This document shows positions 7,958 to 63,026 of a DNA stretch of 64,000 nt, one piece after another. Origin of the DNA: Lantana camara (Eukaryota; Streptophyta; Magnoliopsida; Lamiales; Verbenaceae). The stretch is from NCBI GenBank assembly GCA_037501455.1, contig CM074862.1:58745501-58809500 (forward strand), read 5' to 3'. Positions within the stretch are counted from its first letter, which is position 1, and every line of letters starts with the position of its first letter. The notes under the pieces were generated by a model. That model saw nothing but the letters and a program-made list of their open reading frames with translations. It did no database searches and was not told where the DNA came from. A program made the position numbers and the translations under genes.

Positions 7958-8003
7958 TGACACGGCCGTGTCAACTTTGAACTGAAAATGGACACGGCCG
8001 TGT
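7958..8003. promoter_or_regulatory. LTR palindrome array, one pair
   Basis: TGACACGGCCGTGTCA (7958-7973) is a perfect 16-bp palindrome. ACACGGCCGTGT (7992-8003) is a perfect 12-bp palindrome. Their centres are exactly 32 bp apart. The 17-bp spacer ACTTTGAACTGAAAATG is almost the same as the one at 55357-55373 in another LTR whose palindromes have different arms. A binding-site role is inferred. Confidence 0.7.
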
Positions 8004-8072
8004 TGGACTCTCGACTTTTGAATTATGATTGATTTATGACCTCAAGGACTATATGAATGCAAGAATGAAAAG

Positions 8073-8716
8073 TAGGGCTGTCAATGGATCGGATTTTAAT
8101 CCGAATCCGGTCCGAATCCGATCCGAATTTTAACATATTCGTCCGATAAAAATGTCCGATGGATCATATCCGATTATAAATATTCGTTATCCGAAATAAA
8201 TGGAGCGAATATGGAATTAACGAATCCGATCCGTTTAGAATCCGAATCCGATTATATATATAATATTTAATTAAAATAAATTATTTATTAGTACATAATA
8301 TTAAGTAAAATGACTAAAATTATAATTTTCACATAATTATCACTTTAAACAACAATAAAATTTGAATTATTTACTCTAAAAGTATATATTTTCCTTTATT
8401 AATAAGTTTAAGTTAACTTATTTTAAACAAATATAAATAAAATCATCAAATAATCCATTAAATAATTATTATTTATTAATATTATGTAATTATATTAATT
8501 CTTTATATTAAATTTGTTAAATAAAAAAATTAAATTTTATTGCTAATCGGGTCGGATCTTTAATCCGATATAATCCGATCCGATTATACATGGATTCAAA
8601 ATAAATGAATCCGAATCCTATAGGATTCGGATTCGGATCCGGCTGTCGGATCCTCTTGTCGGATTCGGATCCGGAATCCCCTGATCCGGTCCGAATCCGA
8701 CCCGTTGACAGCCCTA
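8073..8716. mobile_element. hAT-like non-autonomous DNA transposon
   Basis: The element is 644 bp with terminal inverted repeats TAGGGCTGTCAA and TTGACAGCCCTA. It is flanked by the 8-bp duplication ATGAAAAG (8065-8072 and 8717-8724), the usual size for the hAT superfamily. Both ends are packed with copies of ATCCGAATCCG and its variants in both orientations, like the subterminal repeats bound by hAT transposases. The middle is about 280 bp of very AT-rich DNA. There is no coding capacity, so it must have moved with a transposase from elsewhere. Confidence 0.9.
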
Positions 8717-10121
8717 ATGAAAAGTATGAATGCTATGAACGTGAACGAATACGATTTTATCGTATATTGAACGAAACTTGATGAATTATGTGTTTAATTG
8801 AATTCCATGGTATTCATGATCATATTTGGACATATTCTTATGTTTCAAGCCTATCATAACATGTCATTGCATAGCCGAGCGTCAAATGTGGTCATAATTG
8901 AGTCTCACACTACCTTTGTCACACAGATATTGACCCAGTGGGAGACGGGGTTGAGCAGTGAGAGCTTTGTCGGGTTCTTTGGTCTACCAGGTGGGTTTTT
9001 CTTCTATTAGTTAAAGATATGACCCCAATATACCCAATGTGCGAGATTTTGGCCAAAGCTATATATATCTATATCGAGTTTTCCAACGAATCAATGTTTT
9101 AAGTGTAAAGCCTTTAATTTGAATATCCTACCAAAAGTTTTGGCGAGAAATGAATGTTCACAATGAATGGGGGCTCGGGACTTAGTGTATTGGTGAACCG
9201 GGGAAGCTTGGGCTGACGGGAATCCACATATACTAGTTCCATCAATTTTGGTAACCTAGACTTCTCTAGGAGATTAGTGAAAGAAGGGGGACCCGCGCTT
9301 TTGGGGATTCATGTACCCCTCTAGCACCAATGAATGAGGGTTCGGGCCTTGCAAACCCGTCCCTAACCGGAGGAAGAAGGAGTATATGAATGATCTAATG
9401 AATGTGCACGAAAGAATGAATGCATGAACGAATGAATGAATGAATGATTAACGAATTACACAAGGTGTTGGTTGGAGATAATGCACTCCCCCTCGCCGGG
9501 CCACAAATGAATTGTTATAATCTTATTCGTTGTATTTTAATTCCCACTTGGGGAAAAATGCCTCTAAACCTCGAATAAGGATTATAGCTTGCATGTATGT
9601 GTTTAAATTCCGCTGTATTATAATATTATGCCTATTTTTATACCCACCAGTCTGTCTAAGACTGAACCCGGAGTTGTTTCAGTTTCTTTTTGCAGGAGGG
9701 AATGTTAGGCGGGATACAAGTCGGAGAAGTCTTGCATAGTGTCTAGCATTTCTTGTCTTTACACTGATTTGTTTATGCTTTTGGTATTTTGGATAATGTA
9801 TTTGAATGGAGCGTACACGTTTGTATTAGAATTACTGATTACTTGAACTTACATGTTGGTACCTAGAGCAGCTCAATATATGGAATACATGTTGGTATCT
9901 AGAGCATATAGCTCAGTATATGGTATATGAATTATTGCTTCCGCTTTTCTGTTACTCTGATTGTTGTTGTTGTTGGGGTTTAAGTGATAGGTTAGTCCCG
10001 CCTGGCTTAGCGAGTGTGTATGTCTCCGTTCGCTATGATTTGGCACGTGTATGGAAATCCATTTCATATACAGGTCAGGTCATGGTGCAGGGGATGTGAC
10101 GTCTCGCGCTCGGGCGTTACA

Positions 10122-11875
10122 GGGTTATACGGGTTCTAGATAACTAGCAATTAGACCTCAACTTTATCAACAAAGAAAGTAAGGATACAGCTTATGGAGC
10201 TTGCTCCTCGTCAACGGGAAGAAAATCTGTGCAACAAGGACAAGTGATCGTGAGACACAACTCCCATGAACTATTTAAGACACACGACAAAGTCATGATC
10301 AATATATCATGCAATAACAATTAAAGAATGTAAAATAAGAGCATAATTATCAATAAACCAAGTATATAACTCATATAAGTCACATACGGGAGCCAAGGAA
10401 GTGAAAGGAATGCAATAAGAGAGGTTTTGGCAAAGTTTAGCAAAAATCGACAATTTTTGGAAATACACATTCTGTAGAAAAACTAGAATATATTGACTTC
10501 TAGAAGTTGGAATTAAGTTTTGTTTATTGGATATGAAACTAGACACCTAGACCTTTCCGAGGATATATGGCTCGTATTCTAGCTCAAAACGAGGAGAAAA
10601 TGGTGTATGCTTGAACTTAGGTGAATGCAGGTTGTCAGTGAAGTGGCGACACCAAAAATAATTGATTATTTCTCACAAATGAGAAAAGATATTGAGGTGA
10701 TTCAAATTGGAGAATATTTTAGACTTCAAGGTGTTTCTTTCAATTCAAAAATCAGGTCAATCGGAGCTCGGATGAGGGTGTCGCGGCCGTGACAAAATTG
10801 TACTAAAATGCAGTCGCGACCGTGACAAAATTGCCAACTTCTCGACTTGTTAGTCGTGGCCCCGACCAAAAATGGCCACGAAACTGTTGCGGGCACGACC
10901 CCCAACTCCAGCAGTAGCGAAAGGCTTCGGGAAAACAGGGCAAGGTTTGAATTTTGGCTTCTAAGCCTTCCCACAACAAACCAAGGCAAGAAATCTACTC
11001 CAAACTATCATATATCATGCCTATAACTCAAGTATACCAATTAGACTTCAATTAATCCAAGAAACATGCTTAGATCATCAAGATTTTTCACTTTCAAGTT
11101 CATATATGAATTCATCATATAAGCTCAAATTTTCCAAGAATTCATGCATCAATCTATTGTAAAATCATGTATTCATGCATCAATCACCAAATAATCCATT
11201 TATCCAAGAATTCACAAACCCTAGCTTCAAGAAATATCATCAAGAAATCACATATATATCTAAGTATACCTTGAATAAGAAAGGAGAAGGAAAGAGATGA
11301 TGATTGAGCTTCAAATATGCAATTTCCTTGGAAAATTTTAGCTTCAAGATGATGATTTCCCAAATTTTCCTTTCCTCTTGATTGTCTCGTGAATATGGAT
11401 GCAAGAGAGCAAAGATTGGTATGAAATGAATGAAATGAAATGGAATGGAAGAAGAAGGAATCTTTATACGTAAATTATCTCCTCAAATTTGATGAAAGGT
11501 ATAAATTGCAATTAAGTCCCTCAAAGGTGTATGTTTTGCAATCAAGTTCCATTTCTAGAGAATTGATCACTTTGGTCCAAGAATTTATCATGCAATTTGG
11601 TCCTCACATTTAAATAAAGGTTCAATTAAGGTCAATTCAAGAATTTAAATCACGTTCGGCAATTATTTCACGTATCCCTCATTTCCAAGTCATGCAATAT
11701 TTCTCGCATTGATATGAATTTCATATAATTTCACATAAACATGTCAGAATATAATTTATAAAATTATCATGGAATATATGAATTGGATAAACAAAAGAAT
11801 TAAAATAAATCCTAACTCTCGGAAAAACTCACACATGACGTGCGTACCTGAATATCCGAAAATTGGGGCGTTACA
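10122..11875 (-). mobile_element. LTR fragment, gypsy lineage
   Basis: On the minus strand this LTR starts TGTAACGCCCCAATTTTCGG at 11875. It runs through a palindrome array to a truncation at 10122, directly against the end of the chromovirus LTR. The part at 10130-10270 resembles 29460-29600 in reverse orientation, so the 3' third of the LTR is missing. No second end or target duplication is visible. Confidence 0.75.
10780..10899. promoter_or_regulatory. LTR palindrome array, four decayed units
   Basis: Four 14-bp units of the type GTCRCGGCCGTGAC lie at 10780-10793, 10813-10826, 10853-10866 and 10886-10899. Centre-to-centre distances are 33, 40 and 33 bp. All units carry substitutions that break perfect symmetry, suggesting an older copy. 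Confidence 0.6.
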
Positions 11876-14119: not shown

Positions 14120-14246
14120 ATCTCCCCACCCGGGGAGATTTTGTACAGTAAAAGTCCCCGCCCGGGGAGCTTCGTGCAGAAAGCTTCTGCACAAAGGCTA
14201 CCCGGCCGGGCCTTTTCACGGCAAAAATCTCCCTGCCCGGGGAGAT
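14120..14246. promoter_or_regulatory. LTR palindrome array, four units
   Basis: Units are ATCTCCCCACCCGGGGAGAT (14120-14139), TCCCCGCCCGGGGA (14155-14168), CCCGGCCGGG (14201-14210) and ATCTCCCTGCCCGGGGAGAT (14227-14246). Centre spacings are 32, 44 and 31 bp. Between units two and three lies a further dyad around AAGCTT, with arms GTGCAGAA and TTCTGCAC (14174-14192). The related array at 22873-22998 keeps a decayed form of it. The array is GC-rich within AT-rich DNA. Confidence 0.75.
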
Positions 14247-18426: not shown

Positions 18427-18926
18427 TTATCCTCAGCTATTTGAACCACACACCCCCAAGAGAAGGAAAAAGCTGCTGATCCGAGAGAGAAGAAAGGAGG
18501 AAGAAGAACCCTTTTCATGCCTTGTGATTTTTGAAGCTTAATCTCTTCCATACTTCATCAAATCTTGAAGGTATATATATTTTTGAATTCCTCATCATTC
18601 TATGATGCATTTGATCCTTGAACTTCATGTTTTAATTCAGATTTAATTTGAGATTGGATGCTTGCATGAATAGGAAGGGTTAGACAGAATTCTTGCTTCC
18701 TTGCCTTAGCTTGAGTTTGGGACTGATTTGGTGCATGTTTGTAGGTGATTTGAACTTCTTTACCTTAATTTATGATTCATACTTCATGATAAGTGTGTTA
18801 TGAACGAAATACCATTAAAGACTTTGAAGAAAACCTTGAATTTTTGGGCATGAAAACTGAAAATACAAACTGCTCTTTCTTGAATGAATTGTTGTCAGAT
18901 TTTGGTGATTGAATGGTTGGATTTTG
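17779..18926 (+). mobile_element. LTR fragment, 5' part
   Basis: It starts TGTAACATCCCGCTCGTCC right after the polypurine tract and runs 1148 bp to the point where another LTR begins (18927). It includes an (CT)18 microsatellite and the diverged box around 18110-18190 shared with 19250-19330. It ends before the place where a palindrome array would be expected. Confidence 0.75.
18387..18422. repeat. (CT)18 microsatellite
   Basis: Eighteen perfect CT units within the LTR at 17779-18926, directly after AGTTAA. The neighbouring LTR has only a GAGAGAGA remnant near 19570. Confidence 0.95.
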
Positions 18927-20144
18927 TGACACCCCGACTTTTTGGACTTCCAGGTATGTCTTTACGAGTGAGCTAAGTGTGCTTTTAAATTATTTATTTA
19001 TGCATTTATGTGTTTATTATAATTTTTATATGCTATATTTTGATTTATATGAATTATTTGTTAAAGTATATTATTTGAAATTTTGAACGTTTAGCCCCGT
19101 TTTAATTCGTTTGACCTCGTACTTGTTTCCAATTTTTTTGCAACAACTTGGTATGCATGAATTATATGATTTATGAACTTGTTTACATGCTCGTTTTACG
19201 TTTTAGAACTCGTTTGTAGTGGTCTTCGACTATTTATTTATTTTGGGGACTCGAGGGCCTAACGGAGTTTTAGCGCACGTTGTGTTCCGGAGGCCACAAC
19301 TTGAGATCGGGAATTCAGATTCGAATTCCGAAAGTGGCGTTGGACTCGTAATGAAGATATGGAGCTAAGGAACCTAACCTTGTATTTTTCTAAGCCCCTT
19401 TGAGCCCCCGTATTTTGTTTGAACCGATCTGTACGAGCAGATTCGCCACCTTGGAGTATTTTGGCCATAACCAATTCATTTCTTAACCAAATCACTTGAT
19501 TCTTGAGCTAAATGAACCCTAGTTAAACCCTCTAACCATCCCTTAACCTATAATTTCGAAATCAGACCTGGGGAGAGAGAAAGAAGCTGGTGAACGAGAG
19601 AGAAATGGGAAAAAGAAATCTGCACAGTTCACCTTGCCTTTCCAAGATCAATACTCCATCTTTTTGCCTCAAATTCGAAAGGTAAGTCCATGGTTTTATT
19701 CTTAATCTTCTCCTCTTTCTTTTAAGTGTTTATTTGTTGATTTCCATGGAGATTTGAGTATGCTTTGGTGAAGAACTTAAATAGTTAGGTTTATCTCCAA
19801 ATTTTGAATTCATGAGTTAGCTTTAGTTTTTGTGGATTTTAATGCATGAATCTTGTTTCCCTAAGCACCAATAACTGAAATCATGCTCTTATTTTCATGG
19901 ATTGTAAGTATGTGAATTTTCACCTTGTTTGGAGCTTGGAAACGGGACTGAGAATATGAGAATTTGAAGCATGATTGGAACCTTGTTCTTGTTGCTCTTG
20001 CTGCGTGAGTTTCTGTCAGTTTTGGCTTCTTTTCTTGCTATGTTTGCTACTATTTTTGTTGCTCTGCTGTTGCTGCTACTTTGCCCTATTGTTGCTGCGT
20101 GAGAAGAAGGAAAAACAGAGCTGCAGCTGCTGCTGTTCGTTGCC
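18927..20144 (+). mobile_element. LTR split by nested insertions, part 1
   Basis: It starts TGTGACACCCCGACTTTTTGG. It continues to a CTG-rich stretch and the 5-bp target TTGCC (20140-20144), where the solo LTR 20145-22859 is inserted. The reading resumes at 22865 and again at 27103, so this one LTR is spread over almost 9 kb. Confidence 0.8.
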
Positions 20145-22859: not shown

Positions 22860-22864
22860 TTGCC

Positions 22865-23092
22865 CCTGCTGTAATCTCCCCGGGCGGGGAGATTTTGTGA
22901 TGGTTGTGTCCTCGGCCGGGGAAACCTTGTGCAGTAGCTTCTGCCTTCCTTCTACCCGACCGGGGACCTTCGTTTGTATTTCTTTCCCCGGGTGGGGACC
23001 TGCGTGAGTTGTGGGTTGTGGTGTGCATGGTTTAATTCTTGCATGCATGTGTGTAATGTGGAGTGTGTATATACATGCATGTACGTGATATA
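22865..23092 (+). mobile_element. LTR split by nested insertions, part 2
   Basis: This is the continuation of the LTR that starts at 18927, after the solo LTR. It holds the palindrome array and the start of a TA/TG-rich stretch. It is then interrupted at ATATA by the solo LTR 23093-27102. Confidence 0.8.
22873..22998. promoter_or_regulatory. LTR palindrome array, four units
   Basis: Units are centred at 22883.5 (AATCTCCCCGGGCGGGGAGA, 22873-22892), 22915.5 (CCTCGGCCGGGG), 22959.5 (CCCGACCGGG) and 22991.5 (TCCCCGGGTGGGGA). Spacings are 32, 44 and 32 bp. The arms match those at 14120-14246, and a decayed dyad GTGCAGTAGCTTCTGC again lies between the pairs. Confidence 0.75.
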
Positions 23093-26000
23093 TGTAGCAC
23101 CCCACACGTGAGGCACCACATCCCCCGCACTAAGGCTCAACACGAGTAACGAAATAGTAAATCCGCACCCGTATCAAACCCTAGCGAATGGGAGACACAC
23201 AGAAAAACCTTTCGAAGCCAGGCGGAGCTAGACCCTGCAATGAAAACCAAACCACAAGGTAGAATGCATCGTAAATCTAAAGTTCAAACATATCGACCAT
23301 AACTAGAATTGGGCTCTTCAGGCCTCTTTTACATCACCAAACCCAGTAAAAGCATTTCAATAACGATTACATAAATATTCAAGTTCATGGTATAATAGAA
23401 CGAATCATACATAATTCCAATACATATATGAGTGCAGAGACTCTCCTAACCTAACTTAACCAACTCAAAGACTCCACACCCCTCCGCCTAGCTCGAAACT
23501 CCAAAGCCAACCTGCACACTAAAATGTTGGGGAGGGAGAGGGTCAGTCTCTAGAAGACTGAGTGAGCAGGAGCGATATACATATATAAAACATGCACATG
23601 CAAGTCATAAATTCCGAACAAGGTTTTATTTGGAATTAGTTCCCAAAAAGGGCAAGAAAATAGATAAACAATGCTCGACTTTTACGACTAATTCATATTA
23701 AATTCATTACTTTCATAAATCATACATAAATATAAGGCTCGGCGAGTGAGCGTGCACAATCTCCAACCAAACTCCGACCGTGTACGACAAATATCATTAA
23801 TATATTGATTAGGCGATCATGCAATATATCATACTACACACAGACCATAAATCATATCATAAACATGTTCGTTTGGGCGATCCAGATCCCGGCCTTCCCG
23901 CACGGTGCATAAACATAACATAACATATATATAAGAAAAGGCGTAAATCATAACCAACCTTCTTCCTCCGGGTGGTGGACGGGCTTGCAAGACCCGGCCA
24001 CCGGTTCAAACATAGGCCAATGGGGGTACATGAATCCCCCAAAGGCACTCAGCTCCCATTCCCCGCTAAACCTCCTAGCGAGGGCCGGTATCACAGTAGT
24101 TTTGTTGGGACTAGTATATGGGATCCCCGTCAGCCCTTGCTTCCTCGGTTAGCCACATATACTAAGTCCCAGGGCCCGTACAATCAGAAATCCTAAATGT
24201 GTCTCGCCAAACATTTCAATTCATACATATGATACATACTATAAGAAATCATACCTTACCGTGTAACTCGACATATGCTATATACGTACCTCTCCGTGTC
24301 ATCCTAATCCGTAGCTAGCATGAACACACACACGGTTTGGAGCATAGCCTCATTACAAAACCATTTTTAAGCTTATATGCGCTCATACGTATAATCCAGA
24401 AGAATTTACTCGATAACTTCATTTGAAAACCATATATATATAATCATAAGGTTTTGGTCAAAGCTTTTCACATAAGGGTTGTAGGGTTTAATACGTAGCT
24501 AAAATGAAAACACCCTCACCTGAACCGTGACGAAACAAGGAACGAGTACCAAGTGCCTGAACAAGATCTCTCCACCCTGGAGACAACTGTACAAAAGACC
24601 ACAAGACGTGTTCGTGAGACTCAAGACTCTTAATAAACCATATATGACGCACGGCAATGAAGTGAATATGACATGAATGCATATATGATCATGTTATATC
24701 ATAAAAATGTTCATGTGCACTATTAATGCAATTAAGGCATATAAACAAGCCATTCATTCAAATACTTTCAAGAAATAAAGGTATCATACTCATTTATTTC
24801 ATATCCTTCATAATTCATAGCAATATCTTACAAAATCTTGGAATCATAATCAAATTATACCTTCAAACATGTTTACATTGAGTATGATACACAAAAAGGT
24901 AAAGAACATCACTTAAGACATCAAAAGAATGCAAGGATGTACTTAATATTTCATATAGAAGCATTCAAGCCACGTCATAGCAATTCACCAAAAGCATGCT
25001 TTAAACCTCATCCAAATGCTATGAAATTAAACCAAAATACTCCTAACACATAGCAAAACAAGTTCATAGTTCAACACGAAAGGAGATAAAGTCATTAAGG
25101 AGGGGAAACAAATCAAAAACCGAAGAGGAAGTAACGAGGACCGCGCAAGGGAAGGGACACGGGGGTGTCACCAACCCTAGCCAAACTGAGCCACGACCGT
25201 GGCTCAGTACAGAGCTGACCAGAAGGTGTGACACGCCCGTGTCTCACACTTATGTGTAAATGAGACACGGGGGTGTCACGGTACAGAACTTAACCGCTCA
25301 CAAAGTTTTACCGGCAAAACTGAACTCATACAAACTCAATCCAAAGGCATACCAAACCAACTCCAAATGCTATGAAACTTAATATACAACATATTTTGCA
25401 TGTAATGAACATATTTCATTTAGAGTGAAAAGGCTAAATCATACATTAAGGCCATCGAATCCATGCAACAAAACTGGGTCGCCAAAAATCACACATATGA
25501 GCCCTAATGATTCCATCATGCCTTGATCAAGTACTTAGGGGTTGAATTTGGATCTGAAACTTTGGGGAATGCATGCTAACATACTAAACAACTAATATAC
25601 TTCATATATATGCAAAATGGTACAATTTAAAGCACATTAGAATGACCAACAAGTTACAAAACGAAACAGCAACAAGTCTGTCATGGAGCATGCATAAAAA
25701 CAGGCCATGTACTTCGGTTTTGAGGCTTCAAATGGAACCAAATACTTAAAACATGAATTCTAACATATAGAAAAATGGGTGTACATCAATTCCATGCAAT
25801 TTCACACGAAGAGAAGGTCATATGATCAAGCTACAACACATAAATTCACACAGCAGTTCCAAAAACAGGGGAAACAGTTTGATCATCAAGTTTGGAGCTC
25901 CATATCTCATAATTTCATTAAAGGGTCAAGAGATAAAATCCTCCTAACATCATATACTATCAGTTGGGAAAGAAATTGGCCAATAAACAAGCTCATATAA

Positions 26001-27912: not shown

Positions 27913-29927
27913 TGTAACGCCCAAATTTCCGGAAGTTCAGATAAGCACGCCACGAGCGGGTCTTCGGGAGTTGGGAGGTTTAATTTAATTATTTCTTTCA
28001 TTCATTTATAACTTTCATCATATTATATGTATTACACCTTCATGCATTCGTATGATTTTCATTAACATGAATTATATGAACTAATTGTTATATGTGACCT
28101 AATTGCACTATATGTCCTTGATTGATCCTTTGTGTAAATTTATGGACTTAATTGCATTAAATGAATTGGAGCTACTTGATCATATTCCATGGAATGATAC
28201 TTGATTGAATGAATTCAAATAATTTGAGGACTTATGTGCAAAATGTGATGAGTCATACATATTCTTGCAAGACTTTGAGTATATCATCTATTTCTTCCAT
28301 TTTATTCCAAGATATATAAGAATCTCACACACATACACACACTCATATCGATCAAAACACCAAGAAGAGAAGAAGAAGATTTCATCAAACTCAAGCTATT
28401 TTCCGGAGAAATTGCATACTTTGAAGCTCAATCAACTTTATCACTCCATCCTTTTTCTTCTCTTTCTTATTTGAGGTAAATATGATGAATTCTTGAATCC
28501 ATGATTGAAGTAGGGTTTGAGGAATTTGATGTAATTCCTTGATTATTTGTGGTTAGAAGCATGATCATGATCATTGAACTTGAAAACTTGCTTGAATTCT
28601 TGAGTTATATGGAAGTTGGATACATGGAAATATATAGGGTTGGATGATAATCTCTTGATGAATCAAAGCATGTTTCTTTGGTTTAAATGGTGCTTAATTG
28701 ATATATATGAGATATATGCATAATATATGTTGGTTTTGAGTTGATTCTTGCCTTGGTTTGGTGTTGGGAAGGCTTAGGAGCCAATTCCCGTGCATGTCCC
28801 CTGTTTTCCCTTGTCTTTTCGCCCAGATTACTTCCAAACGCCCTTGTGGTACCCTAGTTATAACACCAAACGCCCGTTTGGGAACCTACTGCCTCACCCG
28901 AGGGCTTCCAAACGCCCGTTTCTTCTTTCAGTTCATTTTTCAAACGGGCGTTTACCCCCTCAAACAAAATCCGATTGACTAGAATTTTGAACCGTTGGAA
29001 ACCTATTGAAGTCTAGAACAGCCTCCAATTAGAATCACCTCATTATCTATTGTAATTTGTGAGATATAATCAATTTGTTTTGGTGTCACCACTTCATCAA
29101 CAATCTGCATTCATCTAACTTCGGGCTTACGCCATTTTCACCTCGCTTTAAACTGGAAAACGAGCCATATATCATTTTAAAGTTCTACTTGTCTAGTTTC
29201 ATTTTCAACAAACAAAACCTAATTCTAATTTCTATAACTTGAGATATTTCCATTTTCCCACAGCATGCGTGTTTTAAAAAATTATCGGTTTTTGCCAAAC
29301 TTCACCAAAACCCTTCTTATTGCATTCCTTTCACTTACTTGGCTCCCGTATGTGACTTATATGAGTTATATACTTGGTTTATTGGTAATTATGCTCTTAA
29401 TTGACATTCCTTAATTGTTATTGCATGACATATTGATGCATGACTTTGCCGTTCGCCTTAAATGGTTCATACGAGTCGAGTCTTCTATACACTTGTCCTT
29501 GTACACAGATCACAGTCCCAGTGTTGAGGAACATGCTCCGTAGGGTGCTTCCTTGCTATTTTTGGTTGGTAAATTTGAGGTTACTTCTAGATATATAGAA
29601 CCATACAAACCCTAAGTGAGTTTTGGACCAAAATGTATACTTATATCTATAGTTTTACAGAAAACTCAAATGTTTTACCACTGTACTACTGCTACTGTAC
29701 TGAACCACTGTTACTGAACTGATTGATTGTTTTGGCGAGTATATTGTTCACTGTGGGCCCGAGGTTAGTGTATGAGCCAACCTGGAAAGCACGAGCTGAT
29801 GGGTAACTCTGCACTTCCCTCACAATATTGGGATGACCCCTAAATCCACTAGGAGATTAGTAGAGGAAGGAGTTCCGGGCATAGGGAATCATGAACCCTA
29901 TGCTCACACTGATTGGATAGCGGGGCC
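27913..29927 (+). mobile_element. LTR fragment with palindrome array
   Basis: It starts TGTAACGCCCAAATTTCCGG and extends 2015 bp until the copia LTR at 29928. It includes the array at 28834-28953 and a conserved block near 29460-29560. The final quarter, with the CAGTCT dyad and 3' end, has been lost or lies beyond the copia element. Confidence 0.8.
28834..28953. promoter_or_regulatory. LTR palindrome array, four units
   Basis: CCAAACGCCCGTTTGG (28866-28881) is symmetric except for its CC centre. Variants lie at 28834-28849 and 28908-28923, and AAACGGGCGTTT at 28942-28953 is the same core in the opposite orientation. Centres are 32, 42 and 32 bp apart. Confidence 0.75.
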
Positions 29928-37924: not shown

Positions 37925-37956
37925 ATACGTATACATCCATGCATAATTAATACTAC

Positions 37957-43238: not shown

Positions 43239-43390
43239 TCAGAGATCCTGGTAGAAGATGCCATTCCCTAAATAAGTCTAATCATCGGCTTGGCTCGAAG
43301 ACCTTTCCTTTTGGCTTGTCGAAATCCCATTGAAGTTGATTGATTGAACGGGGTTCCTCATGTATGTCCAACAGGACAAAAAGCCGAAGC
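43192..43390. repeat. inverted repeat, 49-bp arms
   Basis: The arms at 43192-43240 and 43342-43390 are reverse complements with one mismatch and 101 bp between them. The first arm overlaps the mitovirus-like frame. It may have arisen in the mitochondrion or during joining of fragments at insertion. Confidence 0.9.
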
Positions 43391-44842: not shown

Positions 44843-45272
44843 CACGTACATTATACCATGCATGCACAAAAATATGCACAAAATATAAATTTCATGCATG
44901 CAATTAAAATCATTATATGATTCATACCACTCATGCATGCATTACATTATATATATATATCTCCACGTACATAAAAATGCATGCAAGTAAGATATATATA
45001 TATATATTATATACACATCACATGCACAGGTTATATACCACAATTATATAGATAAACGTACTTAATATATTATACATGCATGCATAATATGTAATATATG
45101 TCACAGCCATGCATATTCACAAATAAAACACACACACACATATATATATGGATATACGTACACCTGCATGTAATTCCATATATATACCTACACATTCTAA
45201 ATGTTATAGTATAAAAGAAAGATGCAGCAGCAAATGAAGAAGAGAACAGCAGCAGCAACTGTAAAGCTCCTC

Positions 45273-45318
45273 CCCGGCCGGGCACTTTTTTGCCCAAAAA
45301 TCTCCCCGCCCGGGGAGA
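45273..45318. promoter_or_regulatory. LTR palindrome array, one pair
   Basis: CCCGGCCGGG (45273-45282) and TCTCCCCGCCCGGGGAGA (45301-45318), centres 32 bp apart. The spacer reads CACTTTTTTGCCCAAAAA, conserved in LTRs B and C. This LTR subgroup has one pair only, corresponding to the last two units of the array at 14120-14246. Confidence 0.75.
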
Positions 45319-47097: not shown

Positions 47098-47140
47098 AAA
47101 GAATTCGTCCTCGGATTCACTACTCGACCAAACAAATAAT

Positions 47141-47332
47141 GAGAGATACCCCGTCTCTCGCAAGCAACAAGGAGAGATCCCCGTCTCTCGAGCAACAACA
47201 ATGAGAGAACCCCGTCTCTCCAACAACAATGAGAGAACCCCATCTCTCAAGCAGCAGTGAGAGAACCCCATCTCTCGTAAGCAAAGAGAGTACCCCGCCT
47301 CTCGAGTAAAAATAAGAGAATCCCCGTTTCTT
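47141..47332 (-). repeat. GAGAGA hairpin array, seven units
   Basis: Seven units of the form GAGAGA-ACCCCG-TCTCTC start at 47141, 47172, 47203, 47231, 47259, 47286 and 47314. Periods are 27-31 bp, and CAA-rich spacers separate them. Each unit is an inverted repeat with 5-6-bp arms and a six- or seven-base loop. The array sits about 45 bp from the polypurine tract. Copy B has five units. Confidence 0.85.
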
Positions 47333-49980: not shown

Positions 49981-49992
49981 GCTCTGATACCA
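49981..49992 (-). other. primer binding site (initiator tRNA-Met), LARD A
   Basis: The minus strand reads TGGTATCAGAGC, eight bases inside LTR B, which starts at 50001. Confidence 0.88.
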
Positions 49993-51852: not shown

Positions 51853-53998
51853 GTGTGTATATATATATATATATATATTATATATACATCACATGCACAG
51901 GTTATATACCACAATTGTATATATAAACGTACTTAATATATTATACATGCATGCGTAATATGTAATATATGTCACAGCCATGCATATTTACAAATAAAAC
52001 ACACACACACATATATATATAGATATACATACACCTGCATGTAATTCCATATATAGACCTACACATTCTAAATGTTACAGCATAAAAGAAAGATGCAGCA
52101 GCAAATGAAGAAGAGAACAGCAGCAGCAACTGTAAAGCTCCTCCCCGACCAGGCACTTTTTTGCCCAAAAATCTCCCTGCCCGGGGAGAGACATTACAGA
52201 CGCAGGAAGGCAGCAACAACACAAAACTTTCCCCTGTTTCTTCCTTCTCAAACACACAACAGCAGAAGACTATCAACGCAGCAACAAAACAACAATAACA
52301 AAGAAGGAATTCAAGGTAACAAATATCACAAAGCAGCACGCAGCCATGACACCAGCAACGTAGCAATTACAGCAGCTTCAAACAAGCTTTAAGTCATCAC
52401 ATATATAGCTGAAAATGGATGAAAAACAGGGTTACACATAGGGAAACATGTATACTCAACAACCATGCCAATATTACAAAGGAAGCAGCACCAAGTATCC
52501 CTATTTCAGCCCCAAAATCATACGCAGGAGCAGGCCAAAGAAGAGCAGTCATGTTCATGCGTAAACCTTCAAGTTTCATGAAGTTCAACAATGGTGGGTT
52601 CTCATACACTTAATATACATCAAATTAAAGTTCAAATATATGTACTAGGACCTGAAGTGATCAGATTTCACGCACAATTTCTCAAGAAAAACAGAATCTA
52701 AATCATGAAATCAAATATGGAGTCATAACCTAACTATTCACTCATGCCTTCAAATCTCCATGGATTCATGCTCAAAATTAGGGATGCATAGCTTAAAATG
52801 ACACATATTGAATATATATCACAACCCTAAACTCACCTTGTGAATTGGATGCATGACGAAAGAGATTTGAGCTTGAATCTCCAAGGTTGAGCATGGTTAC
52901 GAGACTGGAATTGGAGCAGAGACTTGGGACTGATATTTCTCTTGTTTGTGAGGGTTATTTCGGTTTAGGGGGATAAGGGATAGTGGCCTTAACTAGGGTT
53001 CCAAGGAATCAAATCATGGTTAATTTGGTTAAGGTTTGTGGAAGATATGGCTCTTTAAGTAAAAGGTGGCAACTTTGACGAACGTAGCACTTTTCGGTTG
53101 AATTTCGGAGGTCCAAATGGTCTTAGAAAAATATAAGGTTAAGTTCATTAAACTTGAATTTTTGTTACGAGTTCAGCAAAGTTGACGAAACTCAAATCCG
53201 AGTTTCCTAGCTCAAGATATCACATACAGAACCAAGGGTGCTCTAATTGCCCGTTAGCCCCCGGTTTGGTTCCACAATTCAAAATAAATTCGTTACCACA
53301 TGAAACGAAGTCGAAACCATAGAACGAGCATATAAACATGTTTATGACATATAAGTCTACAATATACTAAATTTTCATAAATTTTCGATATCAATTCGAA
53401 TAAAAACGACACTCAAACATGTCACACATGTGCATATAGTTCAAGAATTCAATTAAATTAAAATAATTCAAACATTTCATAACATATAACAAAAATTAAA
53501 TTCATTGATAAAATAAATCCAAGTGCACGTATTAAACATAATTTAAATCAAAGTTTACTAATTATATAAAATTTTAAAGTGAAATTTCAAGGATTAAGTT
53601 AAATTTTAATTTTAATATTAGTAAACTTAAAATATAATCATTTAACATTGTAATAGTCAATATAAGATTTTATATATACAAAACACTTATAAACAATTAA
53701 TTTGCTCAACTTGTCACGTAAATGCAAATCGACCAAGAATCCATTTTAATTATTATTAAATATATGACGAAATGCATATAATGGAGAAACTAATGAAAGT
53801 TACAATTAGTAATTATCAAAATGATTAATTAAACAATTAAATAATTTAAATGCATAATTAAGGAGCACACAATTTATTTATATTATTCCAATTCCATTAT
53901 TGCATATATTTCAGTTAATCACATAATTAAATAATTTAATTGCACAATTTATAAACACATACGACATATTAGTACAAAAGAAAAACCGAGGCGTTACA
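50001..53998 (-). mobile_element. LARD LTR B, shared by two internal regions
   Basis: A 3998-bp LTR from TGTAGCACCCGAGCAC to GAGGCGTTACA. A primer site abuts its left end and a polypurine tract abuts its right end. It therefore serves as 5' LTR for 47083-50000 and 3' LTR for 53999-59441, the mark of a tandem made by recombination. The dyads lie at 50476-50492 and 51236-51250, the palindrome pair at 52143-52189, and (TA)n at 51609-51645. It shows the uninterrupted version of the site where LTR A has mitochondrial DNA. Confidence 0.9.
52143..52189. promoter_or_regulatory. LTR palindrome array, one decayed pair
   Basis: CCCCGACCAGG (52143-52153) and TCTCCCTGCCCGGGGAGA (52172-52189), centres 32 bp apart. 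Compared with LTR A, the differences fall at CpG or CCGG positions, consistent with decay of methylated C. Confidence 0.65.
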
Positions 53999-54290
53999 AC
54001 CTCTCCCCCTTAAAAAGAATTCGTCCTCGGATTCACTACTCGACCAAACAAATAATGAGAGATACCCCGTCTCTCGCAAGCAACAAGGAGAGAGCCCCGT
54101 CTCTCGAGCAACAACAATGAGAGAACCCCGTCTCTCGCAAGCAAAGAAAGTACCCCGCCTCTCGAATAAAAATAAGAGAATCCCCATTTCTTACAAACAA
54201 CAACAAAGCAAGGAAGTCTCCAATACTCCCGAGCAACACAACGCAAAACAACAATTAAAGTCACTTAAGACACCCAAAGCCATCCACGTT
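53999..54290 (-). mobile_element. LARD internal region B, 3' part
   Basis: The polypurine tract (53999-54013) and the five-unit GAGAGA array are followed by sequence matching 47330-47440. A solo LTR is inserted at 54291, with ACGTT (54286-54290) as its target. The interior continues at 56886. Confidence 0.88.
54057..54192 (-). repeat. GAGAGA hairpin array, five units
   Basis: Same repeat as at 47141-47332, but with five units instead of seven. The two missing units are the CCCCATCTCTC variants in the middle, so the arrays changed by gain or loss of whole units. Confidence 0.85.
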
Positions 54291-55191
54291 TGTAACGCCC
54301 CGATTTTCAGACAGTCAGATACGCTCGACACGTGTGGGTCTTGAGCGTTAGGATTTTATTTTATTATTTTCGTTTATTCAATTGATACGTGTTATATTAA
54401 ATTTTATAAATTGTGTTCAACATGATTACGTGGAAATTGTATGAAATTCATTTCATTTTGAGAATTATTGTATCAATGGAATTTAATTGTCACATGAATT
54501 AATTGTCCAATTTGTATTAGTTGCTTAATTGTCCCTGAATGATTATTCTTGTAAATGTGAGGGCCAAATTGCATGGTTATTTCTTGGACCAAATTGATCT
54601 TTTTCCATACCTTATGTACCTAGTTGCATAATTTATACAATTGAGGGATTGAATCACAAATATTACATATTTCCCTAAAGTATCACGGTATAAGCATCTC
54701 TTCTCCATGCCTTCACTTCATTTTTCATCAAATTTATGAATTCCAAGTCATGATCATGAAGGAATTAGGAGCTTTGAAGCATCATCATCTCATCTCATCT
54801 CATCTCTTTCTTTCTTCCTTTCAAGGTATATGATTGATATTTTATGATTTCTTGAATTAACATGTGAAGCTAGGGTTCATGAATTAAATGTGATAGGTTG
54901 TGTATCTAGTGTTAGAAGTATGATTACATAGTTATAGCTTGAATTGCATGCTCAAATCTTGAGAATTATGAGATACTATGATGAGTTTATATTTGAGCTC
55001 AAGTTGGGAATTATGGAGATTGAAGCATGGATGGTGTGTTTATATTGTATCTTTTGTTACCTAAAGCATGCAAGTATATTTCTTTTCATGAATAATAATG
55101 TTTGGAATTGATTATGTGAGCTTTGAGGAGCTTTAATGGTGGTTCGTGCATCCTCTGTTCTTCTCCCCTGTTTCTGGACTGTCTGCGTAAC

Positions 55192-55387
55192 GGGAACGGC
55201 CCTTCCCGTTCCCTTTGTAAATGGGGAACGGCCGTTCCCATTATTTGAACAATGTGTCAGGCGGCGAGGAGGGGAACGCCCGTTCCCACTTTGTCTCACA
55301 GACGGGAACGGCCGTTCCCATCTTCGGGGAGCCCGACAGCGGGAACGGCCATTCCCACTTTGAACTGAAACCTGGAACGGCCGTTCC
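55192..55387. promoter_or_regulatory. LTR palindrome array, six units
   Basis: Units of GGGAACGGCCGTTCCC: perfect at 55224-55239 and 55304-55319, one mismatch or a changed centre at 55192-55207, 55272-55287 and 55341-55356, and a perfect 14-bp core at 55374-55387. Centres are 32, 48, 32, 37 and 32 bp apart, forming three pairs. This is the clearest array in the window. Confidence 0.85.
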
Positions 55388-55850
55388 CAGCTCTCTGGTA
55401 GTGCAGAAACTTTCTGCATAAAATTGGAATTTTGGGACGTCGTTCCAACGGTTTATTTGACCCCAAATTGCTATTATACGATCGTTTACATGCCAAAATG
55501 TGATATTTTACATGCTACATTGTGTATTGCTCGATGTCTCGTATATGATCATGCCGTGCGTCTTATATGAAGTAATTGTCTTGAATTGTGGTCTCATGCA
55601 CGTACATTGTCCCGTTTCTTGTCCAGTTATTCTCCAGGGCGGAGATTGTGGGTCATGAGCACGTTCACGCATTCACGAGTCGTGTGTCGCCTGTCAGGTG
55701 AGGTTTAATTTCTAGTTATATAGAACCCGTATAACCTTTACGTGATTTTTGGCCAAAGGTATTTATATTTATAATTTCATGAAATCACTTGTTATTTCAA
55801 GCATGTTAGTGTTCACGAATCAAGCATGCCATGTTCATGACAGCAAGTAC

Positions 55851-56159
55851 GTGCGTTCTCCTGGCCAGGCTCTCCTTAGTGAGGGTGTTGGGCTGGTCTT
55901 CGGGCTGGTGGTTGTCCGTCCAACTACAAGAAGAACAATACTCTATCGTGTATGTGTGTTCTCTTGGCTAGGTCCTCCTTAGTGAGGGCGCTGGGCTGGT
56001 CTTCAGGCTGGTGGTTGTCCGTCCAACCACAAGAAGAACAAAGCCTTATCGTGTACCTGTGTTCTCCTGGCCAGGTTCACCTTAGCGAGGGCGCTGGGCT
56101 AGTCTTAGAGCTGGTGGTTGTCCGTCCAACCACAGGAGGAACAAACCCTATCGTGTTAC
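55851..56159 (+). repeat. three tandem copies of a 103-bp unit
   Basis: Units begin at 55851, 55954 and 56057, each with GTTCTCYTGGC near the start, GAGGGYGYTGGGCT in the middle and GGTGGTTGTCCGTCCAAC before the end. Other LTRs of the lineage have one diverged copy of this region (for example 50875-50995 on the minus strand). Confidence 0.9.
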
Positions 56160-58349
56160 AAGCAAGCCATGTATTGATTGCATGATTTCCATTCCATGAA
56201 TGTGCTAATTGATTACAATATCGCACGATTGCACGATAATTGAATTGCATGATCACCTAATGATTAACAAGCAAGCAAGCATGTTATCGATTGTATGAAA
56301 AGAACAAGTACTTAATATTGATAGTTGTATTCTCGGGCGAAGCTATATTATTATTGAACTTGTATATTTACCTTTTATAAATCTTTACCCGAGAATATAA
56401 CTTGCATGTTATCTGCGCTAATATATATGTAAACCCCTCACTCGGTCTTCATAGACTGACACCTCCACCTTTCAGGTTATTGCAGGTGCGTGCTAGGCGG
56501 GAAGTGAGTCGAGTCCAGTTGTTAGAGTTGAGTCAAACACGGTGCATTTATTTGATTGTTTATTATTGTTCGAGAAAATCATGTTTACGGTTATATGTTA
56601 TGTATTTTAGGAGATGATAATATATTGATATGTAAGCTAGAATATATTTTATTTGGAAGATGAGAAATGTCATGATTGGATAAATGGAAATAGTCGATAA
56701 TGTTCTGTTTATGCTTCCGCTTTATTATGTCACATGTTCGAGTATCCCACCTAGCTTGTCGTGTATTGCATTGTCACCCGTTCGCTATAGGTTGGTTCAT
56801 GTACGGATTGGCCGTTTCGTATGTGGATTGACCTATAGTGCGGGGGGGTGTGGTACCTTCACGTGTTAAGGGGTGCTACAACGTTGATCATCAATTACTC
56901 CAAGTAAGTTCACATAATAAGGAATCAAAGCACCTAACATAAAAATTTTTAAGTTAAATTTGCATGGATGCATGTATCATGGATGCTTCATGTACCGTTC
57001 ACCGTAATTGCATAATTTACAGCTAAAGTTTTGGGGTCCAATGCATGATCTGTCCCAAAAGTCAGTTTAGTGCTCGACTTGTCTTTAAGCTCTTCAGGGT
57101 ACCCTAGCAAAGCAATTGATAGATCCTCTAAGGATTTTATTCTTTATTCCCTTCTGACTTGTCCTGCTTCCAATATTCTTCGATCTTTCGTCATTTCCCA
57201 TAATCTTCATTCAACCAATCAACTCTTTTTACTTAGTCGAGCTTGACCTCCCCGAATATCCTTAATCCATCTGTCCCAAATTCAGATCCAAAGTTATTTC
57301 CTTTTCCCGTATCAAAACCTAACCTACCAATGAAGATAACTTCCCTTGGCATCTTTAAAAGTTTATGCCCGGCCTTAATACATACTACCCAATCTTTCCC
57401 TATCTTCCGTTCAATTTTCCTCACTCCCTTTAAACCTTCAAGGAAAATTCAGTATTCGCCTCCTACAATTCCCTAATCGGAGAAAGGATGTTCTTGATGC
57501 TTCTGGAAGTTTGATTTAAATCTTCCTAATGTTCATCCTTTCCGGTTTGTTGCTTCTGAAATCTCTTTCCGAATTCATTGAACCAAACTTTATTGACAGC
57601 ATCCCTTTTCTACAATAACTTGAATCGATTACCTCTTGACATCGCAACGTAGGAGTTTCCTTAAACTTCTTCATAACTCCCTTGTCTTCCCTAAATGTAT
57701 TTCCGTTATGTCTACTCATTATTTCTTCAGCCACAACTTCAAGTTTAAATTCTCCTCTCGGTCATCCTCTCCCCCTTAAAATTTCTCTCATCTTCCTTGT
57801 CAGGTGTCATCCCATTATTTCTTTTCCTCCTAACTCAGAGGTGGCCAGTCGAAAAGATACTTGATAAGTGAGGTGAAGGAATTTCCTACCAAGTAAACAC
57901 AAAAATGCATGTCGGGTAAAGATGTCAATGTACGTGGCACATTTGAAACAATGAAATATGCAGCACCTTAGAGCAACAAAATCAAATAGAAATGCGCGCA
58001 CGAACATAAATAAAGAAGAATAAATAATTTATGCAAAGTATGATGCACGTGCTATGAATGTTTTGGAACCTGTCACCAATGTGGTATGTTGTTAGCTCGA
58101 AAGCTTTTACTTGTTCCTCCAATCACGAGGTTACTTCGACTTGCTGATTATTCCTTGCCTCTCCCACGGTCTTCAAGTTTCCATGAATCTTTGTGACCAC
58201 TTGTATCTTCCACGGTCCGGAATTGCAATTTCTCAATCCCTAACGTCTTCTGCATCCATGGAATTAGCATCCAAATTTCTCCTCGAAAATCGCCCTTCAA
58301 CTTTGCCCAAGTTCTATTACATAATTGAACCCTAATGTAGTTCTGAACC

Positions 58350-59421: not shown

Positions 59422-59433
59422 GCTCTGATACCA
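59422..59433 (-). other. primer binding site (initiator tRNA-Met), LARD B
   Basis: The minus strand reads TGGTATCAGAGC, eight bases inside LTR C, which starts at 59442. Confidence 0.88.
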
Positions 59434-59441
59434 CTAAAGGA

Positions 59442-62400
59442 TGTAGCACCCGAGCACAAGGCACATCCCCCGCACCGAGACCCGACCCGAATATGAAACG
59501 GACAATCCATACCCGAGCTAAATCACAACGGGAACATACACACTCGCTAAGCGAGGCGGGAGCTAACTTTCACAACCAAAGAGACAATAAAATAGAGAGA
59601 ATACTGATGCGGAAGCGAAGTACATACATAAATAACAAGATAAGAAAATCACAACGGGTTCAACTAGCATAGGTACCTAATCCCAAAATTCAATAAAATC
59701 ATAAAGCATCAATTCCAGATTCTTTCTATTCTTGTAAGCTTATCTTTAGTTCATGATAAAAGTAACGATCAAAACAAATCTTACGTCTTTACACTTAAAC
59801 AAATCATGAATCAAATGCACATGGACCAACTCTGACCTAACGTAAAACTTAAAAGAGTGACTTCCCGCCTAGCACTCCAAACCTGCAAGAACACTGAAAA
59901 CAATCCGGGTTCAGTCTATAAGAGACTGGTGGGTATAAAACAGGGCATATATATTATATAGGACAATATTTAAACGTTCACATGCAAGTTATAATCCCAA
60001 ATGAGGTTTTAGAACATTTCCCAAGTGGGTGAAATAGATAATTCATCAAAAGGGATTATAACGTTCATTTTCATTCTTTAGGTCTTTTGTGGCCCGGCGA
60101 GTAGGCGTGCATTATCTCCAACCAACACCTCGTGTAGTTCATTAAACATTCTTTCTTTCTTTCATTCATTCATGCATAACATTCTTTTGTGCACATTCAT
60201 GAACATTTACACCTTCTTCCTCCGGGTGATGGCCGGGTGATCGGCCCGAACCATCCATTCATTAACCAAAAGGGGAACATGACTCCCCAGATGGCACTCA
60301 GCTTCCATTCCTCGCTAACTCCTAACGAGGTCCGGTTACGCCATTCATTGGTGGGACTAGTGTGAGGGTTCACCGTCAGCCCATGCCTCCTCGGGTTACC
60401 ACTCACACCAAGTCCCTGGGCCCCATTCTGTGCATAACATTCATTCTTTTCTCACCAAAACATTTGTTAGGTTCATAAAATAAAGGCTTTACTTTTAAAA
60501 TCAGTGACCCTTGAAAACGACTCTATATACATATATATTTTCGGCTGAAATCTTTACACATTGATAGTATATAGGGCCATTTATCTAAATAGTAGAGAAA
60601 CCCACCTGTACGCCTCTTACCGAACAATACCAAAAGAAAGGAGACTCGAAAATGTCCTATGCACCCGGCATCTCCGCCCTGGAGAAAACTGTACAAAAGA
60701 CAACGTAATGTGTTCGTGAGACTCAAGACTCCAAATGAGCCATATATGACGCACGGCATGCAATGAACATGATATGATTGCCTAATAGATGATATTATGG
60801 AATGAACATGTTCATTTGCACGATTAAAGCATTTAAATCATATAAACGAGCCATTCATTCGTTCAATGAAACGTTCATATTCATTAAGTTCATATAACGA
60901 TCATATCACGTCCTAAATCACCTTTACAATAGAAGATAGGCAACAATTACATTCAATTCAATATTGGAAATTAGAAAAGGACATGAAATAGGTAACAATT
61001 TAATTTCCATAATTCAATTAAATCAAATAATATAGATATATCTATATATATATAAATGTGTACGTACATTAAACCATGCATGCACAACAACATGCACAAA
61101 ATATAAATTTCATGCATGTAACTAAAATCATTATATGATTCATACCACTCATGCATGCATTACATTATACATATATCTCCACGTACATAAAAATGCATGC
61201 AAGTAAGATATATATATATATATTATGTACACATCACATGCACAGGTTATATACCACAATTATATATATAAACGTACTTAATATATTATACATGCATGCA
61301 TAATATGTAATATATGTCATAGCCATGCATATTCACAAATAAAACACACACAAACATATATATATAGATATACGTACACCTGCATGTAATTCCATATATA
61401 TATACCTACACATTCTAAATGTTACCGCATAAAAGAAAGATGCGGCAGCTAATGAAGAAGAGAACAACAGCAGCAACTATAAAGCTCCTCCCCGGCCCGG
61501 CACTTTTTTGCCCAAAAATCTCCCCGCCCGGGAAGAGACATTACAGACGCAGGAAGGCAGCAACAACACAAAACTTTCCCCTGTTTCTTCCTTCTCAAAC
61601 ACACTGCAGCAGAAGACCATCAACGCAGCAACAAAACAACAACAACAAAGCAGGCATTCAAGGTAACAAATATCACAAAGCAGCACACAGCAATGACAGC
61701 AGCAACGTAGCAATTACAGCAGCTTCAAACAAGCTTTAAGTCATCATATATATAGCTGAAAATGGATGAAAAAAAGGGCAACACATAGGGAAACATGTAT
61801 ACTCAACAACCATGCCAATATTACAAAGGAAACAGCACCAAGTATCCCTATTTCAGCCCCAAAATCGTACGCAACAGCAGGCCAAAGAAGAGCAGTCATG
61901 TTCATGCGTAAACCTTCAAGTTTCATGAAGTTCAACAATGGTGGGTTCTCATACACTTAACATACATCAAATTAAAGTTCAAATATACGTACTAGGAGCT
62001 GAAGTGATCAGATTTCACGCACAATTTCTCAAGAAAAACAGAATCTAAATCATGAAATCAAATATGGAGTCATAACCTAACTATTCACTCATGCCTTCAA
62101 ATCTCCATGGATTCATGCTCAAAATTAGGGATGCATAGCTTAAAATGACACATATTGAATATATATCACAACCCTAAACTCACCTTGTGAATTGGATGCA
62201 TGACGAAAGAGATTTGAGCTTGAATCTCCAAGGTTGAGCATGGTTACGGGACTGGAATTGGAGCAGAGACTTGGGACTGATATTTCTCTTGTTTGTGAGG
62301 GTTATTTCGTTTAGGGGGATAAGGGATAGTGGCCTTAACTAGGGTTCCAAGGAATCAAATCATGGTTAATTTGGTCAAGGTTTGTGGAAGATATGGCTCT

Positions 62401-62560
62401 TTAAGTAAAAGGTGACAGTTTTGACGAACGTAGCACTTTTCTGTTGAATTTCGGAGGGCCAAATGGTCTTAGAAAAATATGAGGCTAAGTTCATTAAACT
62501 TGAATTTTCGTTACGAGTTCAGCGAAGTTGACGAAACTCGAATCCGAGTTTCCTAGCTCA
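59442..62560 (-). mobile_element. LARD LTR C, truncated
   Basis: LTR starting TGTAGCACCCGAGCAC, with dyads at 59912-59928 and 60671-60685 and a palindrome pair at 61491-61536. It matches LTR B to TTTCCTAGCTCAA at about 62560, then changes abruptly to plus-strand LTR sequence. About 0.8 kb of its 5' side (LTR sense) is missing. The (TA)n run is much shorter here than in LTRs A and B. Confidence 0.85.
61491..61536. promoter_or_regulatory. LTR palindrome array, one pair
   Basis: CCCGGCCCGG (61491-61500) and TCTCCCCGCCCGGGAAGA (61519-61536), centres 32 bp apart. Each unit has one change relative to LTR A. Confidence 0.65.
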
Positions 62561-62902
62561 AATGGGATTCGGTTTTGATTGTTTTAAATCATGAAAGTGA
62601 TCACTTTAACTTCTTTCTTGCATTTATGGACTTGTATTTTGTGGTAATTGAGGTTTAGTTGAGATACCATTAATGAACTTTGGTAAGAAACGCATGAAAA
62701 CGGAACTTGATTCTCCTTCTCGCGTGTATGAAGTTTGCTACGGTTTTAAGGCATGAATAGGGATTGAATTGCTGAGTATTTTTTGTACCTTCTTACCTTG
62801 ATACATTAGCTTGATTGTTGGTTGAAGCTTTGTGTTGATGTACCCTGTTTTGTTCTTGCCGAAGACCTGTTGTAGCTGCTGTTATGTTTCGCGTCTGTGC
62901 CC

Positions 62903-63026
62903 TCTCCCCGGGCGGGGAGAGTTGTGCTTGAAAAGTCCCCGGCCAGGGACTTACCCATCAGTTTTGCCCAATATCTTTTTCCCGGCCGAGGAGATGTGAA
63001 GAGGAAATTTCCCCCGGGCGGGGAGA
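62903..63026. promoter_or_regulatory. LTR palindrome array, four units
   Basis: TCTCCCCGGGCGGGGAGA (62903-62920), GTCCCCGGCCAGGGAC (62935-62950), CCCGGCCGAG (62981-62990) and a unit centred at 63017.5 (CCCCCGGGCGGGGAGA, 63011-63026). Spacings are 31, 43 and 32 bp, the same rhythm as at 14120-14246 and 22873-22998. Confidence 0.75.

Follow-up and report, generated by a model that had tools for sequence, protein, structure and literature searches.

Nested Retrotransposons and Their Palindrome Arrays

The window analyzed here, a whole stretch of 64,000 nt from Lantana camara (C8:58745501-58809500, CM074862.1; genome of 1.27 Gb in 378 contigs), is plant DNA with nested long terminal repeat (LTR) retrotransposons, and inside the LTRs lie eleven arrays of GC-rich palindromes, set in pairs at a nearly constant spacing, that may be DNA sites for a protein of changing specificity. 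The dominant LTR group, catalogued from LTR end sequences and a self-alignment of the window, starts with TGTAACGCCCC, ends with GGGGTGCTACA or near variants and is associated with the primer site TGGTATCAGAGC (located at 49992, 59433 and 3220), presumably of the tRNA-Met type; it carries gypsy reverse transcriptase, RNaseH and integrase domains (Pfam). These domains, the primer site and the plant relatives of its pol mark the host element as a plant Ty3/gypsy element, which we take, from the character of the sequence alone, to be a Tekay-like chromovirus. A stretch encoding the three domains, with the 5' part of the element missing, lies at 3932..6652 on the plus strand (Pfam); among the 120 matches listed, protein relatives of this pol are 43-76% identical, and the named ones are mostly plant gypsy pol. 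L1 (6774..10121, plus strand) is the 3' LTR of this same element, recognized by the pol domains upstream, by a purine tract followed by TGTAACGCCCC at 6774 and by the end CGGGCGTTACA.

The array of L1 (7958..8005) consists of two palindromes, TGACACG-GC-CGTGTCA and GGACACG-GC-CGTGTTG, whose centers at 7965 and 7997 are 32 bp apart. Four sites with the half-site TGTCRCG, two of them weak, lie in L2 (minus strand, 11875 to 10122; array 10779..10900, gaps 33, 40 and 33 bp) and four with CAAACG in L3 (plus strand, TG at 27913; array 28834..28955, gaps 32, 42 and 32 bp). The half-site CTCCCCG recurs in L4 (minus strand, 15740 to about 12958; four sites at 14121..14245, gaps 32, 44 and 31 bp), in the LTR fragment K (22860-23092; four sites at 22875..23000, gaps 32, 44 and 32 bp), in the LTR piece G (minus strand, 62562 to the window end; four sites at 62903..63026, gaps 31, 43 and 32 bp) and in LTR D (minus strand, 47082 to 39807; two sites 32 bp apart at 45270..45318), into which the 3385 bp at 40669-44053 appear to have been inserted. 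Two solo LTRs, L5 (minus strand, 27102 to 23093, target-site duplication ATATA) and J (plus strand, 54291-56880, target-site duplication ACGTT), contain four sites at 25155..25278 (half-sites GACAC[G/C], one site GCCACG; gaps 34, 40 and 34 bp) and six at 55192..55388 (GGGAACG; gaps 32, 48, 32, 37 and 32 bp), respectively. LTR E (minus strand, 53998 to 50001, primer site 49992) and LTR F (minus strand, match end 62561, CA end 59442), the latter a near-identical copy of D and E, each have two sites 32 bp apart, at 52141..52189 and 61488..61536.

The site number is thus even in all eleven arrays (2, 4, 4, 4, 4, 4, 2, 2, 6, 2 and 4 in order of position), in keeping with the clusters of two to six palindromes that an initial annotation of the window had described; sites and gaps were picked by hand from motif matches, and weak matches were left out (25252 and 25224 in L5, for example, and scattered ones elsewhere in LTRs). 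D, E and F also form a tandem of the type LTR-internal-LTR-internal-LTR at 39807-62561, into which J is inserted and which likely arose by unequal recombination; the 2.9-kb internal region of this element had no Pfam match in the one frame tested.

Comparison With Shuffled Sequence

Sites were scanned as palindromes around CG-NN-CG, with one decayed CG allowed, one S (G or C) required in the center and equal arms not required. All eleven places named in the initial annotation hold an array, each with at least one site scoring at least 5, and the density is far above that of a composition-matched control: the window has 25 sites of score at least 5 against a mean of 1.37 (maximum 4) in 100 dinucleotide shuffles, and 18 strong sites (score at least 6) against 0.32 (maximum 2). 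Two of the former and one of the latter lie outside arrays (31673, 31711). The segment 31671-31722 contains two imperfect GC-rich palindromes upstream of an element that, from a reading of its frames, we label copia-like.

A paired scan that dropped the CG requirement (gaps 24-60 bp, GC at least 0.4) found 19 pairs, while all 20 shuffles gave none; of these pairs, 15 fall inside nine of the eleven arrays, E and F being below threshold, and those outside (8634, 21449, 47239 and 54097) are other repeats. When the GC filter was dropped as well, the scan gave 1,372 matches, which were not individually inspected, against 0-2 in shuffles.

The arrays had been placed roughly 0.9-1.8 kb from the TG end of the LTR, in AT-rich DNA. 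The centers of the eight arrays with a known TG end lie at 0.91-1.94 kb, and array GC is 0.51-0.60 against 0.30-0.38 in 500-bp flanks (seven LTRs). Arrays cannot be claimed for "every surviving LTR core," as had been proposed, since some pieces look truncated ahead of the point at which an array would lie (3229-3931, 35712 to about 37441, 39140-39806 and 18925-20144). The solo LTR of another family at 20145-22859, said to be free of arrays, has no S-centered pair but does have one pair at 21449 (gap 57 bp, center AT).

Pairing, Spacing and Abundance in the Genome

Neighboring sites in the window are separated by 31-34 bp in 19 cases and by 37-48 bp in 8 (n = 27, a count that includes the near-identical copies D, E and F). 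A sample of twenty 10-kb stretches, taken from seven contigs of this genome at round coordinates chosen by hand and not at random, gave 23 further arrays in 14 of the stretches; the gaps at locus L041 are 32, 43, 32, 43, 32, 43 and 32 bp. When the gaps of window and sample were pooled (seeds 20-60 bp), before the removal of seven candidate clusters, 73 of 132 measured 31-34 bp, including 44 at 32 bp, and the remainder were mostly 37-49 bp, with some at 73-78 bp. S-centered pairs in the sample (n = 60) have a gap of 30-34 bp in 40 cases, 20-29 bp in 3 and 35-60 bp in 17, and five shuffles gave none. The clusters removed (8634, 47105 and 54096 in the window; L024 9763, L025 527, L028 1272 and L028 1601) were similar to miniature inverted-repeat transposable elements (MITEs), GAGAGA repeats, satellite-like or without a CG core. 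The resulting set of window plus sample, with E, F and one site of L5 added by hand, comprises 34 arrays and 150 sites, 136 of which are held in 68 pairs.

Across the whole genome, the exact pattern ACGSSCGT-N-ACGSSCGT with centers 20-44 bp apart occurs 22,071 times against 322 for the reversed pattern, a count limited to ACG-type half-sites that excludes the CCCCG and TCGCG classes. By spacing, the numbers are 460 versus 172 at 20-30 bp, about 16,015 versus 111 at 31-34 bp (by subtraction, which is approximate where one start has two partners), 416 versus 11 at 35-38 bp and 5,180 versus 28 at 39-44 bp; in a subset of 50 genome-wide pairs, 38 were spaced 32-34 bp. Many of the pairs at 20-30 bp belong to a separate class, found genome-wide, in which ACGSSCGT pairs stand 20-21 bp apart around GGATTTTTGACCC (e.g., G000:C1:20324863).

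Arms and Spacers

In window and sample the arm classes include GGGAACG, CAAACG, CGAAACG, CTCCCCG, GGTCGCG, GACAC[G/C/T], GGTGACG and AACACG, to which the whole-genome lists add GTAACG; some genome-wide pairs mix two classes (e.g., C1:5325974). Spacing roughly tracks arm class, being 32 bp for most and mostly 33 bp for TCGCG, while the GACAC class is spaced 34 bp in L5 and at loci L029, L038 and L040 and 32 bp in L1. Over the five outer positions, half-site identity is 0.85 within a palindrome and 0.84 within an array against 0.41 between arrays, a uniformity that is partly forced by the construction of the search and to that extent counts against the protein reader proposed below; arms are likewise in agreement within arrays in a site list made without requiring them to be equal. 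Among the 136 half-sites of each kind, the CG is retained in 114 of the outer and 91 of the inner ones. The central two bases of the 150 sites are GC in 53, CC in 35, GG in 29, AC in 15, GT in 10, others in 8 and CG in none, a tally in which the search filter favors S-rich centers; in 25 sites the center is AC or GT, contrary to the CG-SS-CG type first described, and some half-sites have no CG.

Different arms can occupy corresponding places. L2 and L3 are related LTRs with alignable array regions, and in their second pair TGTCRCG replaces CAAACG at both sites, with the spacer TTTCAGTTCA(A)TTTT recognizable in both despite the different arms; at locus L040 (9246) a third class, GACACG, stands in the same places around TTTCAGTTCA. 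The intra-pair spacer of L1, ACTTTGAACTGAAAAT (7974..7989, plus strand), has its first 14 bases in common with the spacer of the third pair of J (55357-55372), the arms being TGACACG in L1 and GGGAACG in J. Locus L032 matches L4 on both flanks (82% over 357 bp, 75% over 521 bp) and has arms of the GGTCGCG type, partly decayed, at 33 bp, where L4 has CTCCCCG at 32 bp; the two arrays themselves are not alignable. Neutral drift would hardly account for a new arm that arises in every site at once. A candidate cassette swap between L034 and G was dropped, the array of L034 lying outside the matching LTR, and array pairs whose 1.2-kb flanks physically overlap (22883/25162 in the window, L040 4963/6295 and L030 859/2755) were not counted as swaps.

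The spacers share a weak central motif, approximately WAGYWCAAAAT, with a score of 248 against 192 +/- 9 (maximum 210.7) in 20 shuffles, which got fewer restarts; 40 of 68 spacers were used, the rest being too alike. A coherent orientation of spacers inside arrays failed on test.

Other Repeats and Signals

A second kind of inverted-repeat array has GAGAGANCCCCGTCTCTC units at measured spacings of about 27-32 bp. It is found at 54055-54190 and 47140-47300, immediately ahead of the point where the 3' LTR of the D/E element starts, and recurs at the beginning of the window (1-52) and at locus L024 near 9763. The segment at about 37760-37930 was considered as the array of an LTR L6 and rejected, its terminal repeats TACGTATCTATGATGCACGG marking a separate MITE-like element with inner GTGTCGGACAC palindromes. 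Locus L028 has AATCGCG-type inverted pairs 21-24 bp apart that are scattered, satellite-like, over 7 kb (1272-8534). A splice-donor-like CAGGTANG stands about 25-30 bases past TG in the LTRs starting at 6774, 15740, 11875, 17779 and 18925 and also follows the LTR start of L030. A CCAAA-TATA core-promoter candidate was rejected after matching only two of seven LTRs. A protein search with a reading frame across the J array gave no match.

Interpretation of the Arrays

From the palindromes, their pairing and spacing, the likeness of arms within arrays, the arm differences at alignable sites and the abundance in the genome, all of them observed directly, we infer protein binding, a dimer-of-dimers geometry and a regulatory role. 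On this evidence from sequence, we put the chances at slightly better than even that the arrays are DNA sites, locked in their spacing, for a dimer-of-dimers protein of repeatedly altered specificity, and that they probably control LTR activity. Each array would be a composite DNA operator inside the LTR; its unit would be a pair of 14-16 bp palindromes with the half-site NNNN-CG and two free central bases, the paired centers about three helical turns apart and separated by an AT-rich spacer of 15-18 bp with its weak common motif. One protein dimer would sit on each palindrome, two dimers lying on the same DNA face would join over the spacer, and one to four such pairs would make up a dense landing site. 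The half-sites of one array appear to have changed together, with families differing in their half-site, which would mean repeated changes of the reader protein, or of the protein family member employed. The most probable role of the arrays would be control of LTR transcription or chromatin, either as activation or as relief of silencing.

We also entertain, more tentatively, a modular address system, common to a large group of plant gypsy LTRs, in which spacing-locked paired operators combine a constant core and spacer with a switchable arm code and so allow separate control of families. Each arm class might then be read by its own member of a rapidly diversifying DNA-binding family, and the system would extend to families that look non-autonomous, such as D/E/F, which shares its arms with L4 and G.

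Several observations weigh against a protein reader of this kind. Only 13 of the 23 sample arrays have an even site number in the automatic scan, some arrays being cut by the end of a stretch or decayed, and 14 of the 150 sites are unpaired. Gaps of 37, 38 and 47-49 bp between pairs are not whole helical turns, the variety of arms is large for one protein family, and the orientation of the spacer motif relative to the LTR is not steady. No long extra frame was seen in an autonomous relative, L030, which is one decayed copy in which domain tests covered pol only; its primer site is at 8787 and its LTR starts near 4136, with pol matches running from 6861 to 4680, and it also has antisense frames of 91-134 codons and a second array (2755-2864) about 1.27-1.38 kb into the LTR. 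The plant-like contaminant contig L002 continues for 1.74 kb after a TGTAACATCCC start, in a partial LTR, with no pair, and the paired-array feature may not be general. The remaining adverse points, on folding and complementarity, are those that speak for a role in RNA.

Such a role we consider unlikely. The arrays would act as hairpins with a GSSC-type loop, as a longer hairpin formed by a pair or as self-complementary duplexes that join two genomes for dimerization and packaging, and the arms would vary since only complementarity counts. The 3' copy of U3 is present in the RNA wherever transcription starts, the arms do differ symmetrically between families, and some whole pairs are dyad symmetric (in L5 and at loci L030 and L038). 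Folded as RNA, four arrays reach z values of -5.5 to -9.1 against dinucleotide shuffles, with paired sites pairing mutually and the L4 array forming one long hairpin, but good folding is expected of any palindrome array, and the test for a whole-array hairpin constraint had a mixed outcome. Paired centers are complementary in 23 of 68 pairs against 15.8 when permuted (a value reached by 1.5% of permutations), yet they are more often equal (29 of 68 against 15.9 permuted), and without the 15 self-complementary pairs, which are counted twice, the numbers are 14 equal versus 8 complementary. The spacers are mildly self-complementary (0.310 against 0.253 in controls, standard deviation of the mean 0.018), and adjacent spacers are alike when inverted (0.428 against 0.382 in shuffles), but they are also alike directly (0.479 against 0.416), and the direct likeness is the better one in 21 of 35 cases, the inverted in 10. 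Complementary centers, spacer self-complementarity and inverted spacer likeness suit either a role in RNA or a dyad reading of the whole pair. On the other side, hairpins need no equal arms across the palindromes of one array, the 31-34 bp spacing of pairs is constant across unlike spacers, and the spacer motif is seen in both orientations with respect to the LTR. The initial annotation had preferred a DNA site for a two-fold-symmetric protein to an RNA hairpin on the grounds that loops are short or absent; that argument is weak, because four arrays fold far better than shuffles as RNA, but its conclusion is still the best reading, supported by the 31-34 bp spacing and the coordinated arms. 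Our own lean to DNA sites is due mainly to the fixed spacing and the equal arms.

It is distinctly improbable that the arrays are a functionless by-product of replication, with template switching between or within palindromes during reverse transcription perfecting and homogenizing them. This would fit palindromes that are alike among spacers that are different, as well as the centers GG versus CC at seemingly corresponding sites of L4 and K, but it explains neither the 31-34 bp spacing nor the kept inner CG nor the presence in many families. We hold it very improbable that the arrays are a handle by which a host repressor silences the LTRs, with arms changing to escape: coordinated arm differences do fit an arms race, and the sites are CpG-rich in AT-rich DNA, but an escaping element would lose its array, not rebuild a new one at all sites, and arrays with six or eight sites exist.

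If the DNA sites do bind protein, the Lantana genome contains binding arrays by the many thousands, already in place and with a code that can be read; these would offer a direct route to a protein that regulates a very large part of the genome and would make the coevolution of transposons and their controllers testable.

Comparison With Known Systems

In genome contigs of other organisms we found 12 pol loci, six of which (L002-L006 and L011) were judged, from identity alone, to be plant contamination; these are plant-like gypsy pol sequences in assemblies labeled as bacteria, where contamination is likely. None of the six has an S-centered pair except for one low-scoring pair in L011 (gap 37 bp), and no whole LTR was demonstrated in any of them. 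Viral contigs gave no pol relative, and one viral contig (GC 0.70) has a match to the array pattern. Similar CACACGGGCGTGTG strings are presumably present in cotton sequences.

The heat-shock elements of ONSEN, an example of the stress boxes in plant LTRs, are clustered symmetric protein sites within an LTR that follow a fixed host motif. The Lantana arrays are like them in the clustering and symmetry of their LTR sites and unlike them in having no fixed motif; to our knowledge, boxes of the ONSEN type have neither variable arms nor a 32-bp pair rule. The dimerization signals of gammaretroviral leaders are likewise paired self-complementary palindromes, but they consist of one pair, are not known to form arrays and are located in the RNA leader.

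The closest anatomical analogue is the enhancer-blocking Su(Hw) insulator of the Drosophila gypsy element, where one zinc-finger protein recognizes a fixed motif. As given in the excerpted text of the report, twelve binding sites for one protein lie in the 5' regulatory region of this Ty3/gypsy element (PMC5666082). Repeated sites are present in the Lantana LTRs as well, where a single protein reading them would be putative; the same excerpt describes neither family-wise switching of arms nor palindromic pairs (PMC5666082). Among the open-access literature matches listed there is no account of a system like that in Lantana, in agreement with the initial annotation, and such LTR arrays are not described in the excerpts of PMC6911290, PMC11656987, PMC11963269, PMC3605345 and PMC12477314; the insertion-target palindromes in the excerpt of PMC6911290 were set aside, being concerned with target sites, not with arrays inside LTRs.

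The closest working analogue is the anti-silencing VANC system, in which binding leads to loss of DNA methylation. Its target arrays lie in the VANDAL DNA transposons of Arabidopsis (PMC5735166; PMC10398659). VANC21 motifs are 9 bp long, have one orientation and often lie in tandem repeats, and VANC is encoded by the DNA transposon (PMC5735166). The Lantana sites differ in being palindromes set in spacing-locked pairs, with mostly unlike spacers and no common orientation or tandem arrangement, in being located in the LTRs of gypsy retrotransposons and in having no such gene seen in L030, the one copy considered in this respect. In both systems, short motifs are densely clustered in noncoding transposable element DNA, diverge in concert within a copy and differ between related families; those of the VANC system are read by a sequence-specific protein (PMC5735166).

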